A stretch of 64,000 nucleotides of DNA. It comes from Bacteroidota bacterium. GTDB lineage: Bacteria > Bacteroidota > Bacteroidia > AKYH767-A > OLB10. The notes beneath the pieces were generated by a model. It made no database searches. It saw only the letters and a list, made by a program, of their open reading frames with translations, and had not been told where the DNA came from. The stretch is taken from positions 1 through 64,000 of the forward strand of contig JAHEMF010000001.1 of NCBI GenBank assembly GCA_024643795.1, given 5' to 3'. Position numbers and translations under genes: made by a program. Shown here in pieces: positions 6,216-46,318 of this stretch (position 1 is the first letter of the stretch; each line of letters opens with the position of its first letter).

Positions 6216-6596
6216 ATGATGAGAATTAACTTTAATAAATTGAGCCTATTATTCGGAATTCTGATTCTTGTAAATCTACATAGTTCCGCAAATAATATAT
6301 CTGATGTTGCATCGGATAATGAATCTGATAAGACAAGCAAACAGCTTGAACAAGATCTTAAGCTCTACCCTAATCCGGCTGTTGACTATATTTTTGTACA
6401 GAGTAATCAGGGTTTAATTTTGAAAAGAATTGCGGTACTTGATATGTTGGGTAATGTTGTTTGGGAAAATAAATTCCAGGACCCTTATCCTCAATATAAG
6501 TTTCAGATACCATTAGATAATATGAAAAAAGGAATATATTTTATTGAGATCGAAGCCAACGATCTTAGAATAGCCAGAAAAATTTCAAAAGAGTAA
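6216..6596 (+). CDS. Minimal secreted protein made of a signal peptide and a T9SS type A sorting domain
   Basis: The protein has 126 residues. Residues 1-27 form a signal peptide (LSLLFGILILVNLHSSA). After about 25 acidic, Ser-rich residues, a T9SS type A C-terminal domain starts at LKLYPNPA (about 50) and continues through the usual MLGNVVW and MKKGIYFIEI strands to a basic end. T9SS domains normally sit behind a large cargo; here almost no cargo is present. It may be a decay remnant, a small surface peptide or a decoy. A strong terminator follows at 6622. It overlaps the convergent nuclease gene by 12 nt. Confidence 0.8.
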   Translation: MMRINFNKLSLLFGILILVNLHSSANNISDVASDNESDKTSKQLEQDLKLYPNPAVDYIFVQSNQGLILKRIAVLDMLGNVVWENKFQDPYPQYKFQIPLDNMKKGIYFIEIEANDLRIARKISKE

Positions 6597-8047: not shown

Positions 8048-11000
8048 TTACTTGATAACTGAAACTTTTCCGGTAAATAATTGACTCTTGTTGTTTATCT
8101 CAATAAAATAAACACCTTCTGCTTTTGATGACAGATCAATTGAAAATACCTTGTTATTGTTCAATGATTCAATTTTGCTTTGATAAATCACTCGACCACT
8201 CAGATCAATTACTTTTAGATCTGCCTCTTTTCCATCAAGGTTAGGTAAGGAAATATTAAATAATCCCTTGCCAGGATTCGGATATACCTCAATTGGGAGA
8301 TATTCCGGTGAATCGGAAAGTCCTGTTGAAGTTTCATCGAAATTGATATTATCCAGGAACAATGAATTTCCAAACCCATTGATATTAACAAACTTAAATA
8401 TCACAACATTGCCATTCCATGCAGACAGGTCAATTGTATCATTTCTCCAGTCGTTAATACCTGTTGGAGTCCAGTTAGTTGTTTGAGTAGCTACAGTGGC
8501 TAGAACAGTATTTTCCTTATAGTATCCTGTTGGCGAGAATGTTAGTCCGCAATCTGTTGAAATATCCACTCTTAATCCATCCCAGAATGTGGCAGAATAA
8601 GGAGCATAAGCAACATCAAAGGTTAATATTGGGCTTATTGCTGAAGTAAGGTCAAGCTTCTCTGTTATCAAACCATCTTCCTGACCAGGACTGTTATATG
8701 CAAAGTTATTCATCCAAGCTGCATTTGTATTGGCTCCTCCACTACCGGGAATTGCAGTTCTTTGAACCCAAGTTGTTCCAGCGTCTGTGTTTTCAATATT
8801 CCAATTCACAGGTGGGAAGTTTGCTGCCTGGAATGTTTCAACCAAGGGAATAGATGCCGACTGACCAACAACGATATAGCTATTGATGGTAGTTGAACTA
8901 TTTCCAAAGCCATTCGTAACAGATAATGTTACGTCATATACACCGCTAACTGAAAAAGTAAGTTCAGGATTTTGAGATGTGTTAGATGTTCCATTGATAT
9001 AAGTATATCCGGTTGCAGGATTCAGAGTCCACGCCCACGTATTCGGACTATTCTGCGACTGATCCATCAATGTTGTAGCCTGTCCGACACACAGGTCTGT
9101 ATTGGTAGCATAGAACCCGGGGATAGGTGGAGCCTGAACTTCATAAACCGAAATGTCATCAATTGCTATATCAGAAGTGAAATTGGGTCCCGTTTGAGCG
9201 CGGAATCTGATATTGATTATTCCTCCCACATATGGCGAAAGGTTTAAGGTTGACTGTAGCCATTGATTACCTTGATCACCTGAGATCGGTGCAATTACAT
9301 CAAGCTGCCACACATCGTTGTAAAGTACATCAACGTGCAATGTTCCCATTGCTGCACCATACATATGGTACCAAAATTCAAATTGTGGTGCTGTAGCAGT
9401 AGTCAGATCCAAGCAAGGTGAAATCAACAAACTTGATTTATTGAAACATACTGATGCTTCTGTGTATAAGTAGTTGCCAGAAGTAGTTCCTGGGTTATGA
9501 TCCTGATCAGGACCGGTATCAATAGATGGTGTAGAACCTTCGGAAGTCCTCCAATCAATGTCATCTGCAGTACCGTTAACTTCATTTATCCATCCATTGG
9601 ATAGCAGGCATACTTCCTGTTCACAGTTACTGGCACTTGAGCAAAGAGAGAAGGTTTCAAAGTTTTCAGTATAAGGCAAGGTCTGCAAGGTACCTGAGAT
9701 CACTTCAACCACTACTTCTATGGTATCATTATAGGTATTTCCGTCAGCAGGATATGCTGCCCATATTTTAATGTTGTATGTACCTGCAACCTGAAGATTA
9801 ATATTGGTGGCGAAAATGTGGTTAGCAGATGCACCTACAGCGAGTGTTCCAACATAAGTTTCAGAGACTGTAGGATTATTGTTAACACTATAGTTTACTG
9901 GAACATTTGTTAATGGGTTTTGGCCTTTGTTCTCAAGTTCAATTGATACTTCTATGCTGCTAAGATCCATACAGTCTTGAAGAACTCCTGCAGCAGGACT
10001 ATTTACCTGAGCTAATGAAGCATCTATAGCCACAGGACATGAAAATACACCCGGAGCCTTTTGGATAGCGTTTGCTCTTCTGCCTTTATTTCCGTTGGGT
10101 GCATAAGCTTTTACACTAAACCAATATTCCTGAACTGGATTAGTATTGGGAATTACAAAATCTGTATTTGTGGTATATCCTACAGAATCCATATACATGT
10201 TGCCAAGCATACTTACTTCATATCCCAAAGCTCCCGTAACTCCTGTCCATTCAAGTTTGATTGAGTCCGGGCAAGCCCAGGCAACCTGTATATTGGTTGG
10301 TAATCCAATGATTGTAAAATTCTCCATAGATTCTCCTGAAGCGGTCCCTTTGGTAACTCTTACTTTTGCTTGACCTGTTAGCACTGATGGAACCGTCCAA
10401 TCGTAATAATCCTGTGTTCCTGTTACGTTATTGGCAATCAGATTCCAGGAAGTTCCTCCATCTGTTGAATATTCAAGTGTGAAAGATCCGCTTGTATCAA
10501 AATAATCCCACCGGATAGTTTCGGTTTCACCCGGTACAAATCCTTCACCTCCTATTGGATAGGTAACCTCAATATCATCAGTAACAAATTCAACTACCAG
10601 ATAATATTTTTGCGGGCCTTGTGGTATGAGAAAACCATCCACATCAACAACATATGTACCGGCAACGGGATTATCCAGAGTAACCTGCTCAGAATTATTC
10701 AGATCATCAACACCACGTGTTGCAGGAGATGTTATAGCAGCTACTGTTGGAGTTGGATTCAGGACCCAGGGATCGTAAATCATACTGCTTGGATCCGTTA
10801 CTGTCATATTGATATCATTTACCAGTGCTTTGAGAGCTAACGGGTCACCTTCAACATCGGTCCAGTGAATCATGATACGCACCTGAGCTGTGTTAGGTGG
10901 TACAATGATTGAATGTTGGTTACTGCTACCTTGAGTTACAGAATCACTTAAATACCGATTTTCTTCCAAGGTTAATGCTGCTCTGTATGCATTTACCCGC

Positions 11001-12511
11001 CCATAGCCAAATGAATAATCAGGCCCCGGGTTACCAAGATCCTCAGCAGTATTAAGCATACAAGCTTTAATAAGTGCACCATCAGCTGTCATACCGCTGT
11101 TAAGGTCTCTGTATGCTTGTTGTAATTGAGTAACAATTCCGGCGATTCCGGGACATGCAGCGGAGGTTCCACCACCTACTTGATAGGTATTATTTTGATC
11201 CGTTGATAATTGATTAGTACCATTTGCACTGATATCAGGTTTAACTCTACCATCATGTGCAGGTCCACGACTACTTGAGGTAGTTCTTACTCCTTTATAA
11301 TCAAGATTAGCACATGCGATGACATTTTTGCCTTGTTTATAGCCTCCGGTTATATTTCCCCAACCTGCACCTGCTCCATAGTTGCAGTTGGAAGCTGCAC
11401 TGTTACCGGCCGAATAAACATGTAAAAGTGTTGGATTGTCATGCAGTATCTGATCACCTGTTTGTGTATCTGTTGTATACTCGTTACATCCCTGACTATA
11501 TGAAGTTGAAGTAACTAAAACACCTAAAGTTTGGTTTGTTACTGGTGAATTCAATATATGATTATACCCTCCTATATCATAAATATAAATAAAGGCTCCG
11601 GATCCCATTCCTTGGATGGTTGGATCAAGATTACCCGCACCCATCAGAATGCCAGATGTCATATCACCATGACTTCCACCTAAACCGGGAGAAGATACAT
11701 TGCTTTGATCTATCCTACCCGTATAATCAATATGAGGACCAACTGCGCCATCATCAGCAAGTGCAGCAGAAACTCCTGTACCGGAATAGTGTCTGCCCAT
11801 TGGCATATCGGTGTTGATGGTATTGGATCTATGTAAAGACCTGCCACGAAAATCATCAGGTTCTGATGGTGGGGCTATCGGTTCAACATTTGCAACACAT
11901 GGAAGTGAGGCAAGAAGAGATATCTCATTGATTGAAGAACTGATCTCAATCCAGTTTCCGAAATCATATCTTTTTCTGATCTGAAAACCATTTTGAAGTA
12001 AAGAAGCTGATACAGCATCTGCACTGAGGCCTTTATAATACTTTACGATGAGTATAATTTCTTTTTCATTGATCAAAGCATGCTCTGGATATTCAGCATT
12101 ATTGAGTGAATTAGAAAGTTTCCAGACAGGATCAATTGTAAGCACAGATCTAACACCTGAGTTTTCAAGTGAACGAAGGTTACTGCTAACATTGATCTGA
12201 GCCATAAAAGCATAGTTAGGCATATAACTTATCAGTCTGATGCCATTATCAGCCAACTCTTTTTTCTGTTGATCGGTAGGAATGTTTTCAAATTGGATCA
12301 ACCGGAAATAAGAATTACCGAATAATTCGTTTCCTGCGACTCTTTGATTGATCAAAAAGTCATTGAGATTTTTTTGAGGAATAAATTTGCCTGATCTAAT
12401 AAGCAACTCATGATTATTGGCTGCAAATAAGTCTATGATTGAAATGTTGGAAAGCATCCCAAAAAACATAATAAATAAGCAAAATTGCCTGATTCGAAGT
12501 TTTAACATCAT
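8048..12511 (-). CDS. Large secreted subtilisin-like (S8) serine protease with T9SS sorting domain
   Basis: The protein has 1487 residues. A signal peptide covers 1-30 and a propeptide-like region runs to about 235. The S8 catalytic domain covers about 240-515: Asp253 or 254 (LADDG), His281 (SHGDMTSG), oxyanion Asn370 (SAGN) and Ser450 (GGTSAACPG). Then come beta-sandwich domains, a fibronectin III-like module (about 735-820), MAM/jelly-roll-like modules, a PKD-like module (about 1170-1260) and a final T9SS type A domain starting at IEVYPNPG. It is probably exported by Sec, moved across the outer membrane by T9SS and kept on the surface or released, to degrade external protein. Monocistronic. 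Confidence 0.93.
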   Translation of the reverse strand: MMLKLRIRQFCLFIMFFGMLSNISIIDLFAANNHELLIRSGKFIPQKNLNDFLINQRVAGNELFGNSYFRLIQFENIPTDQQKKELADNGIRLISYMPNYAFMAQINVSSNLRSLENSGVRSVLTIDPVWKLSNSLNNAEYPEHALINEKEIILIVKYYKGLSADAVSASLLQNGFQIRKRYDFGNWIEISSSINEISLLASLPCVANVEPIAPPSEPDDFRGRSLHRSNTINTDMPMGRHYSGTGVSAALADDGAVGPHIDYTGRIDQSNVSSPGLGGSHGDMTSGILMGAGNLDPTIQGMGSGAFIYIYDIGGYNHILNSPVTNQTLGVLVTSTSYSQGCNEYTTDTQTGDQILHDNPTLLHVYSAGNSAASNCNYGAGAGWGNITGGYKQGKNVIACANLDYKGVRTTSSSRGPAHDGRVKPDISANGTNQLSTDQNNTYQVGGGTSAACPGIAGIVTQLQQAYRDLNSGMTADGALIKACMLNTAEDLGNPGPDYSFGYGRVNAYRAALTLEENRYLSDSVTQGSSNQHSIIVPPNTAQVRIMIHWTDVEGDPLALKALVNDINMTVTDPSSMIYDPWVLNPTPTVAAITSPATRGVDDLNNSEQVTLDNPVAGTYVVDVDGFLIPQGPQKYYLVVEFVTDDIEVTYPIGGEGFVPGETETIRWDYFDTSGSFTLEYSTDGGTSWNLIANNVTGTQDYYDWTVPSVLTGQAKVRVTKGTASGESMENFTIIGLPTNIQVAWACPDSIKLEWTGVTGALGYEVSMLGNMYMDSVGYTTNTDFVIPNTNPVQEYWFSVKAYAPNGNKGRRANAIQKAPGVFSCPVAIDASLAQVNSPAAGVLQDCMDLSSIEVSIELENKGQNPLTNVPVNYSVNNNPTVSETYVGTLAVGASANHIFATNINLQVAGTYNIKIWAAYPADGNTYNDTIEVVVEVISGTLQTLPYTENFETFSLCSSASNCEQEVCLLSNGWINEVNGTADDIDWRTSEGSTPSIDTGPDQDHNPGTTSGNYLYTEASVCFNKSSLLISPCLDLTTATAPQFEFWYHMYGAAMGTLHVDVLYNDVWQLDVIAPISGDQGNQWLQSTLNLSPYVGGIINIRFRAQTGPNFTSDIAIDDISVYEVQAPPIPGFYATNTDLCVGQATTLMDQSQNSPNTWAWTLNPATGYTYINGTSNTSQNPELTFSVSGVYDVTLSVTNGFGNSSTTINSYIVVGQSASIPLVETFQAANFPPVNWNIENTDAGTTWVQRTAIPGSGGANTNAAWMNNFAYNSPGQEDGLITEKLDLTSAISPILTFDVAYAPYSATFWDGLRVDISTDCGLTFSPTGYYKENTVLATVATQTTNWTPTGINDWRNDTIDLSAWNGNVVIFKFVNINGFGNSLFLDNINFDETSTGLSDSPEYLPIEVYPNPGKGLFNISLPNLDGKEADLKVIDLSGRVIYQSKIESLNNNKVFSIDLSSKAEGVYFIEINNKSQLFTGKVSVIK

Positions 12512-44279: not shown

Positions 44280-45071
44280 TTAGCTTTCAATGAATCTCAA
44301 AAGCTCAGACCTGGAATTTTGAACATCTTGGTCTTTTATAGAAATTGAAGCATTGGTATCAGTGTTTTCGTAACTCTCACCAAATAGTTCACTGAGAACA
44401 CTTATACCATCAATTGCTATATCTCTTGATAATTGCAAACCCGCTTCGATCAATGAAGCGTCCACCAAGTCATCTGAAGCTTTAATTACCATAAGCCGGT
44501 TCGATTGTAGTTGAGCTTGTGTTTCTTTGATCTGCTTTTGTTTTTTAATTATGTAGTACCCAAAACCAATCACCAGAATAATGGAAATAATGGTTCCCCA
44601 TGTTGTGTATGTTACTTTTAAAGAGGTTACTTTATTATGATTCAGTTCTAATTCCTTAATAGTAGCATCAAGGTTATCGATCCTAGATGTTTCTGAGTTT
44701 TTAATTTGCATGTGAACTGCTTCAAGACTATCAATTGTAAATCGGGCAGCAGCCAATAAATATTTTTCTTTGAAAAATAAGAAGCTTTCATATGTATCTG
44801 CAGCATTTTTAAAGTGATTTCTGTTGCTAAAACCATACGCAAGTTTCTGGTAAGCTTCACACCATAAAGCCAATGTAACCGGATCATCAGTTGCTGTGCT
44901 ACTACTGATCCGCTTCAGATTCATACGACAAGTATAGAGTTGTTCAACTTTGGAAGCATTTTCAATATCTGTTATTATGTTTTGAAGATCTGTATTTGAC
45001 GATAAAACCGTCCCAGATGATAACAGGATCATGACAAAAACCAAATTGAAAAAGTATTTGAATGGTTTCAT
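44280..45071 (-). CDS. Single-helix membrane protein with periplasmic and cytoplasmic helical parts, kinase partner?
   Basis: The protein has 263 residues. A signal peptide (to about 25) precedes a helical domain with TPR-like features (ADTYESFLFFKEKYL), a membrane helix at 155-175 and a cytoplasmic part (KKQKQIKETQAQLQSN...). The layout is that of the sensor half of a TPR-type histidine kinase, but no HATPase follows. It overlaps the kinase-like gene by 4 nt (ATGA), so the two are made together. I infer a sensor partner; no function is known. Confidence 0.7.
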   Translation of the reverse strand: MKPFKYFFNLVFVMILLSSGTVLSSNTDLQNIITDIENASKVEQLYTCRMNLKRISSSTATDDPVTLALWCEAYQKLAYGFSNRNHFKNAADTYESFLFFKEKYLLAAARFTIDSLEAVHMQIKNSETSRIDNLDATIKELELNHNKVTSLKVTYTTWGTIISIILVIGFGYYIIKKQKQIKETQAQLQSNRLMVIKASDDLVDASLIEAGLQLSRDIAIDGISVLSELFGESYENTDTNASISIKDQDVQNSRSELLRFIES

Positions 45072-46318
45072 ATCATGTTTTGATTGAATGGGAACCTCAT
45101 GATAAAATCAGAACCATCGCCTTCATCAGACTCTACCATTAATTCACCTTTATGTAATTCAGTCATGATCTCATTACATTTTGTAAGGCCCACTCCTACT
45201 GAATCCACTCCAGGTTTTCCGGAATAAAAGGCATCGAAAATATTGTCAAGTTCCTTTTTATTAATTCCAACCCCATTGTCCTTGATCCTAACTTGTATAA
45301 ACCTTGGAAGTTTGCGAGACGTTATGGTAATTGTTGGAGTATATCCCGGTAAATCTTTCAGTGCTTTCTTTATAACAGCATCAGTGGCATTACTTAGTAA
45401 ATGAAATAATACGAACCTGACACGTTCTCTATCTAAATGCACTTGAGGTAATATATCTTCAAGGTCTTTTACTATTACAGGAGCGACATCTGCTTTCTTA
45501 TAACTTATTATTAGCAAAGACATTTCTTCAATCAACTCATTCAGATTAGATAATTCAAATTGAGGTTCAATATTCATTTTATCTGAAAATTCAGAAGCTG
45601 CATTGATTGCATTTATGGATGATTTTACCTTATTAAGAAAATGAACAGCCTTACGGGGATTCTCAAGCTGTCTTGATTGATGAGAAAGATCACTTAAAGG
45701 TTTTAGATTTAAAAGTTTATTGGCGATTTCATTGAAAGAACCGAATCTTTCATGCAGTTTGGCCCTTCCTTCCGGAATCCAATTTAGTCTTTCCTGAACG
45801 AATTGCTTTTGTTTTGCAGACACTTCAAGTGCCTTCTCTAATAGGGATAGCCTCTTCATTCTATTGAAAAGCAGAGAGGAACCTATCCCCATGATCAATG
45901 CTATATATAAAAGTGCTTTTCTGGCAAGAGAACTGTTTTCCGATTCAATAGTTCCAGACTGAGATCTTAGCTCTGCTATTCTGGACTCTTTTAATCTGAT
46001 GGAATCCTGCCGCTTCTTTTGTTCAATAATAAAAGATCGTACAGAATGCTGAGTAGCCGATACTTCTTGTTCATTGATATCATTTACCATGGCCTTATGG
46101 TATGATTTTAACGATTCAAGTGCTAGATTGTTCTTTCGCTTAGCCAAATGATCTCTTGCATCACTTCTCAATTTGGTCATTTCTTGAGTTTGCCGGCTTA
46201 ACACCGAGTCTGACCATGATACTGAGTTAGAAAAACTAAGAATAGGAATTAAAAGAATAATCCCTGAAATGATAATTCGATCTATCAAAATCCTAAATCT
46301 TAAATGTCTGAAAAACAT
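45068..46318 (-). CDS. Sensor histidine kinase-like protein with HATPase domain and unclear His box
   Basis: The protein has 416 residues. An N-terminal hydrophobic segment (10-30) leads to a charged helical region to about 130, then a membrane helix at 135-153 and a coiled-coil part. The C-terminal HATPase domain has the N box HLLSNATDAV (Asn310), G1 DNGVGI (347-352) and G2 GVGLTKC (375-381). I find no clear HisKA H-box; the nearest His is in SDLSHQSRQ. No response regulator lies nearby. A -7 box is 8 nt upstream. Confidence 0.82.
   Translation of the reverse strand: MFFRHLRFRILIDRIIISGIILLIPILSFSNSVSWSDSVLSRQTQEMTKLRSDARDHLAKRKNNLALESLKSYHKAMVNDINEQEVSATQHSVRSFIIEQKKRQDSIRLKESRIAELRSQSGTIESENSSLARKALLYIALIMGIGSSLLFNRMKRLSLLEKALEVSAKQKQFVQERLNWIPEGRAKLHERFGSFNEIANKLLNLKPLSDLSHQSRQLENPRKAVHFLNKVKSSINAINAASEFSDKMNIEPQFELSNLNELIEEMSLLIISYKKADVAPVIVKDLEDILPQVHLDRERVRFVLFHLLSNATDAVIKKALKDLPGYTPTITITSRKLPRFIQVRIKDNGVGINKKELDNIFDAFYSGKPGVDSVGVGLTKCNEIMTELHKGELMVESDEGDGSDFIMRFPFNQNMI

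Follow-up and report, generated by a model that had tools for sequence, protein, structure and literature searches.

Two overlapping minus-strand genes in the 64,000-nucleotide stretch of DNA analysed here (the window) encode membrane proteins that we call K and S, and that we tentatively interpret, with confidence close to even, as an obligate two-subunit pseudo-histidine-kinase that would bind ATP and signal by contact rather than by phospho-histidine. Sequence shows that K and S are consistently paired and homologous, that both lack an H-box, that the motifs of the ATP site are conserved, and that one pair of genomes bears the mark of purifying selection. A more specific account is possible but clearly less secure: K and S would be two diverged pieces of TPR sensor kinases that have both given up phospho-His chemistry, with the ATP site under the strongest constraint in K, and together they would form a two-subunit membrane sensor, fixed in its lineage, that is gated by ATP and acts through its conformation. 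The window is located on a 180-kb contig (C89) of an assembly (G000) of 2.88 Mb in 110 contigs that is 99.8% complete, and the ORF coordinates of both genes, K then S, were verified. The features of the pair are as follows.

45068..46318, minus strand: K gene, putative membrane pseudo-histidine-kinase of 416 aa with a HATPase domain; directly upstream of S in 16/16 genomes with the pair
44280..45071, minus strand: S gene, partner of 263 aa without HATPase; in the same 16 genomes as K
45068..45071, minus strand: ATGA overlap of K stop and S start, 4 bases common to both ORFs
46235..46291, minus strand: K N-terminal hydrophobic stretch, residues 10-28, signal peptide or anchor (hydropathy)
45926..46210, minus strand: K outer (periplasmic) helical part, residues 37-131, resembling the last TPR helix and coiled coil of TPR sensors (predicted topology)
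45863..45919, minus strand: K inner membrane helix, residues 134-152 (hydropathy, borderline at 1.6)
45551..45862, minus strand: K linker and DHp-like helical hairpin without H-box, residues 153-256 (conservation, weak-confidence model, profile scans)
45083..45430, minus strand: K HATPase (ATP-binding) domain, residues 297-412, N, G1 and G2 boxes intact (Pfam and alignment)
44997..45053, minus strand: S N-terminal hydrophobic stretch, residues 7-25 (hydropathy)
44604..44882, minus strand: S outer TPR-like and coiled-coil part, residues 64-156, homologous to K (hhalign)
44547..44603, minus strand: S inner membrane helix, residues 157-175 (hydropathy)
44283..44546, minus strand: S cytoplasmic tail, residues 176-263, without His, aligning with the linker and first DHp helix (alignment; H-box scaffold not significant in f1, the window's own family)

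Much of this architecture had been proposed in a preliminary description of the same DNA, and it held up on closer analysis. The two genes do overlap by ATGA; hydropathy and structure models give both proteins the export-type N-terminus, periplasmic helical part, single inner helix and cytoplasmic part that had been proposed, with topology predicted from hydropathy and the S helices taken from the relative in genome G029; and one protein alone has a HATPase, as HATPase_c (PF02518, E 5.6e-18, residues 297-412) is the sole Pfam domain of K above cut-off and S has no Pfam match above cut-off. We attribute the common layout to homology, since hhalign matches S with K at E 1.6e-11 over 167 columns, colinear through the outer helix, coil and membrane helix, a score to which coiled-coil and membrane composition may contribute part. 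Comparison of K with NCBIfam gave 66 models, the 25 of them listed being kinases or related, none near its cut-off and all after residue 200. Weak, below-cut-off matches to DUF6377 in 2/14 S and 2/13 K (best E 0.0047) perhaps reflect the same outer-coil-membrane module in other regulators. Elsewhere in the window, two proteins (6216-6596 and 8048-12511) carry type IX secretion sorting tails, and one of them, of 1487 aa, has weak subtilase-type matches; taken with the kind of kinase present, these tails suggest Bacteroidota.

The recurrence of the pair is more than chance, as it occurs in 16 of the 42 genomes of the order and dN/dS is well under 1 in one genome pair. A single-sequence search found S in 14/42 genomes, and a profile built on 14 rows recovered stand-alone S genes of ~260-300 aa, at least 87 bits each, in 16/42; the next matches, of which two are K, score at most 38 bits and lie in longer frames of 335-1122 aa. 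The K profile in turn found K at 287 bits or more in precisely the 16 genomes holding S; its next matches reached at most 210 bits in open frames of 386-1178 aa, besides the other half (237 aa) of the K of G030, which is split over two contigs by a contig end. In every one of these genomes K immediately precedes S on the same strand, at spacings that, across 14 related loci measured, are -4 in seven, +3 in four, and -29, -26 and +40 in the rest (-4 in the window, +3 in G030). Co-occurrence, which the preliminary description had named as a check on its proposal, was complete at the cut-offs used: K and S stand together in 16/16 genomes having either, and neither a lone K nor a lone S, the partner that might have occurred by itself in most relatives, was seen among the 42 genomes. 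A partner with an ATPase and a partner without one are thus present together in all 16, as would be expected of a split kinase. The pair was not found in the other 26/42 genomes. Outside the order, no stand-alone S was among the matches listed for 296 genomes of the class, where the frames were at least 381 aa, no match to S in 392 genomes of the phylum reached E 1e-13, and the K profile at E <=1e-58 gave only two matches in the 296 genomes, the rear parts of 679- and 736-aa frames. All these searches scored no more than the top 6 to 8 candidates of each genome, and absence from a draft genome is no proof. The pairs fall into two families, f1 (that of the window, with six S proteins) and f2 (ten genomes).

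K is, on its alignments, a descendant of TPR sensor histidine kinases that has lost its H-box: a profile of 15 K proteins matches 15 canonical kinases of the order at an hhalign E of 8.5e-57, in an alignment that starts at the membrane helix and runs to the end. In a tree of 37 ATPase domains, which leaves out a duplicate of the K of G004 and two long rows, a single branch (98/96; 98% of bootstrap trees) separates all 15 K from the rest, and the K divide into f1 and f2; the pair therefore probably arose before f1 and f2 parted. The ancestry of S is less sharply drawn. S matches the canonical kinases at an hhalign E of 4.3e-7, with its motif 'hriAxLG' falling on KMASLGQLTAGIAHEI, and a mixed K/S alignment placed the S-only rows on K and not on the S half, the common layout being visible. 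The 10 of 21 S-profile matches outside the order that were scanned with Pfam comprise five with SpoIIE phosphatase, three with HisKA_3 and HATPase, one cyclase and one with TPRs only; given these mixed outputs, S is best described as a relative of TPR sensors. The case for a kinase ancestor depends on the H-box scaffold, and since f2 alone shows this clearly, we are less sure of kinase descent for S in f1, the window's family. Five TPR sensors in genomes of the class (L055, L057, L060, L062 and L071) combine a front end like that of S with a SpoIIE phosphatase output, and one sensor module seems to serve several outputs.

The absence of an H-box from K is supported by several approaches. HATPase_c (PF02518) is present in all 15 K scanned, and HisKA is listed for 0/15 in a protein-by-protein Pfam scan at E up to 10, in which the program's filter drops most matches above about 0.1; for comparison, a canonical kinase of the window's genome gives HisKA at 1.5e-5, just below its cut-off. 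Because MAFFT places the H-box ambiguously in f1 K, which has linker deletions, we scanned with a gapless profile of 13 distinct H-boxes against shuffled sequences at three profile widths, and found no convincing His-bearing H-box in the 15 K. Sites with p<0.05 in the wide scan are N229 (window), Q180 (G029), Q189 (G002) and S204 (G006), none of them His, the G002 site being a Gln at the expected H-box position, and H189 of the window K, which is followed by Glu, ranks sixth with p 0.87. Three His sites do reach p<0.05, namely G029 H176 (0.01), G019 H238 (0.02, second helix) and G010 H200 (0.04); each does so at one width of three among 15 proteins, and we treat them as chance. The first of these is replaced by Gln in G030, the genus mate of G029, its neighbour H175 being kept in both, and the His-Glu candidate H181 in the first helix of G019 has likewise given way to Gln in the genus mate G020. 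No aligned column of the K cytoplasmic part outside the ATPase has His in at least 4 of 15 proteins, and conservation within K is lowest in the linker and DHp-like part, with 2/104 columns at least 80% identical against 38/156 in the ATPase. By Pfam, by profile scan and by the loss of candidate His residues within two genera, then, the 15 K proteins lack the phospho-acceptor His in an H-box that marks a histidine kinase, and they correspond to a pseudo-histidine-kinase of the DivL type, a kinase homologue whose orthologues lack that residue. The preliminary description had seen no normal H-box in the HATPase protein and had suggested a non-canonical kinase, and the scans agree with it on both points, with no HisKA match in any K to speak against it.

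The ATPase-less partner tells a related story in f2. The best H-box-profile site of S falls on the H-box position in 8/10 f2 proteins (all but G002 and G006), with p <=0.01 in six, and the residue there is H (G003), A, D, S, A, S, S and N; reading the alignment gives N in G002 and K in G006, hence nine of ten without His. We read f2 S as retaining an H-box-like scaffold in which the His is replaced in 9/10 genomes. The six f1 S proteins have no significant H-box site in the profile scan (p 0.11 to 0.94). Across all 16 S, alignment places His at the H-box position in G003 only; that of G032 has a His one residue beyond the aligned position, and the S proteins of the window, G029 and G030 have none after the membrane helix. 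The proposal that the partner supplies the His is therefore not borne out, and of the earlier phrase "split or non-canonical histidine kinase" the second half stands, with no HisKA in 15 K, and the His-bearing partner does not. A split kinase of the CheA3/CheA4 type, whose ATPase-less partner carries the phosphorylated His, is likewise not what we see, a relocated His in f2 being conceivable. All 15 complete pairs retain one or more cytoplasmic His residues outside the ATPase, so that clade-specific phospho-His sites may exist, and a phospho-His common to all pairs is ruled out at the level of alignment, in which no His column is common to all (K, 15 proteins; S, 16). The best S His column holds His in 8/16 proteins, all of them f2 (HR/HG; 8/10 f2 genomes), and this His is absent from each of the six f1 S and from the S of G003 and G006.

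The ATP site of K is, by comparison, intact. The N-box Asn, DNGxG and GxG are identical in 15/15 aligned K, and a HATPase with N, G1 and G2 boxes, as a histidine kinase should have, is thus present in all of them. Between G029 and G030, the Nei-Gojobori dN/dS of this one genome pair is 0.016 for the ATPase end of K (169 codons), 0.137 for its front (225 codons), 0.111 for the part after the membrane helix (91 codons) and 0.072 for S (261 codons), and both genes are under purifying selection in this pair. A structure model of K (mean pLDDT 79.7, pTM 0.46) shows a helix from residue 63 to 203 through the membrane, a second helix at 219-247 and then the ATPase; residues 171-250 are weak (pLDDT 47-69), and the underlying alignment held four canonical kinases, by which the hairpin is biased. 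A Foldseek search with this model returned, as its first ten matches, the cytoplasmic parts of the kinases ZraS (7.2e-14), HK853 and YycG over 232-259 columns, with the DivL structure 4q20 at rank 30. K and S of G029, in frame and folded as one read-through chain, gave a pTM of 0.47, with only four rows paired and no between-chain confidence, a model uninformative on contact.

None of the 38 receiver matches in the genome lies on C89, the 180-kb contig with the window, and two receiver queries, which matched each other at 1e-6 to 1e-7, found no receiver domain in 214 ORFs of 14 related loci, in keeping with the earlier remark that no response regulator is nearby. The surroundings differ between f1 and f2, and there is therefore no third gene fixed to the pair in the stretches seen. 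Neighbours in f1 read as prmC, ribD, dapA and ligA (prmC alone having been scanned with Pfam), and the gene after S encodes a small protein in three f1 genomes (L107:1770-2255, L108:3984-4475 and L109:11044-11343), the three clustering together and the one scanned being DUF456. A protein of ~650 aa adjoins the pair or lies near it in 10/14 loci (L112:11348-13291, L114:7261-9204, L108:4472-6388 and seven more); both of the two scanned have a domain of the GT51 peptidoglycan transglycosylase type, one with a below-cut-off DUF748 match in front. We rejected GT51 as an obligatory partner: two genomes that bear the pair, G000 and G032, gave no match to the long form, and 23/26 genomes without the pair did give one (in one of them in two pieces). 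The window's genome, G000, has only a short transglycosylase and no long GT51 form. Within that genome the best match of K is a TPR histidine kinase with a normal H-box on contig C49 (L120:4075-6054, 30% identity), which we regard as a candidate interaction partner of the pair; the nearest receiver match on its contig is ~20 kb off.

We propose a mechanism in which K would contribute an intact ATP-binding domain together with its membrane part and a DHp-like stretch that lacks the H-box, and S its outer part, membrane helix and, most clearly in f2, what may be a relic of the first DHp helix, with no ATPase. The outer remnants of both proteins would sense an envelope signal, and their membrane and DHp-like helices may pack together in a bundle. 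K would bind ATP, the signal would change the state of K, and ATP binding would set that state. The predicted output is contact with a protein encoded elsewhere, for example an ordinary TPR histidine kinase or a response regulator.

A working kinase, too, would be expected to keep its ATP-site motifs fully conserved, and this counts against the pseudo-kinase reading, as do the S front end, which is not kinase-specific, the lack of a significant H-box scaffold in six f1 S, and the His residues kept in S (HR/HG, 8/10 f2) and in K (H175, G029 and G030). An unlikely alternative that draws on these motifs and on the S His kept in eight of ten f2 genomes is a true split histidine kinase with a relocated phospho-acceptor, in which the K ATPase would phosphorylate a moved His in trans or in cis, the candidates being the His of 'HRIAxLG' in f2 S, which lies fourteen residues ahead of the old site, and, in f1, a K His such as H189. 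Phosphorylation in trans between two subunits has a precedent in CheA3/CheA4, according to the available text (PMC3591291), but the S His is absent from all six f1 genomes, G003 and G006, the window S has no cytoplasmic His, and candidate His residues of K become Gln within two genera. We consider it rather improbable that K is instead an ordinary histidine kinase whose H-box has diverged beyond recognition (H189-E190 in the window), with S as an accessory sensor. A Glu does follow H189, as in an H-box, a linker one heptad shorter would by hand count put H189 there, and the modelled hairpin and ATPase resemble kinase structures, with the bias of four canonical kinases in the alignment; however, H189 scores no better than shuffled sequence (p 0.87), no aligned K column there has His in at least 4 of 15 proteins, and the linker and DHp-like part is where K is least conserved (2/104 columns).

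GHKL serine kinases without an H-box exist (RsbW/SpoIIAB and PDK), and with its intact ATP-site motifs K might be a GHKL protein kinase acting on Ser, Thr or Tyr of S or of a protein elsewhere, an explanation to which we assign a distinctly low probability. SpoIIE-type phosphatases oppose GHKL Ser kinases in other systems, and the S front end is common to SpoIIE-phosphatase sensors. RsbW/SpoIIAB and PDK, however, have a Glu four residues before the N-box Asn, a position at which K has H, N, S, C, F or D and in 15/15 proteins never E, and from its membrane helix onward K can be aligned with histidine kinases. It is very improbable that the genes are a decaying pair without function: the lost H-box and the 26/42 genomes of the order in which the pair was not found would fit decay, but frames are intact and gene order is kept in 16/16 (the K of G030 being cut by a contig end), and dN/dS values of 0.016-0.17 in one genome pair contradict it.

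If the two-subunit pseudo-kinase that we favour is correct, K and S would represent a natural kinase-derived pair in which the phospho-acceptor has been lost and the ATP-site motifs have stayed invariant over two bacterial families, a compact two-gene system that would separate the role of ATP binding from the role of phosphorylation in a sensor kinase. It would also be a caution that annotation by HATPase alone counts K-like proteins as histidine kinases.

Among the known systems close to the pair are the canonical TPR sensor histidine kinases of its order, with which it shares an outer TPR/coil part, an inner membrane helix, a DHp-like stretch and a HATPase, but in K the H-box is missing and the TPR part reduced to a remnant, S lacks an ATPase, and two genes stand in place of one. 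Among the literature matches listed, in a collection that covers few subscription journals, we found no paired TPR kinase without an H-box. Kinase functions are spread over two proteins, with the ATPase in one only, in CheA3/CheA4 of Rhodobacter sphaeroides, a split kinase (PMC3591291), and in Hik36-Hik43 of Synechocystis (PMC7656254); as described in the accessible parts of these papers, the partner carries a dedicated His domain (P1/HPt). These systems are CheA-type, whereas K and S are of the membrane TPR type and have no His common to all relatives in either partner. An inactive kinase that tunes an active one has a precedent in a ChrS pseudokinase variant of Corynebacterium, which acts through HrrS and alongside which RetS-GacS is cited (PMC9491836, available portions); in that laboratory-evolved variant the ATPase part was lost and the His retained, so that the missing half is the opposite of the one missing here. 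DivL of Caulobacter, as portrayed in the text available to us (PMC4211667), is a pseudo-histidine-kinase with Tyr at the His position, other kinase motifs kept and weak ATP binding, and, as is probably true of K, it has a kinase fold without the phospho-acceptor His; DivL, however, is one protein, whereas K lacks the whole H-box, has invariant ATP-site motifs and is always accompanied by a second protein, S. We expect the pair to work most like a pseudo-kinase of the DivL type, with a two-gene layout like that of a split kinase; strictly, it belongs to neither class.
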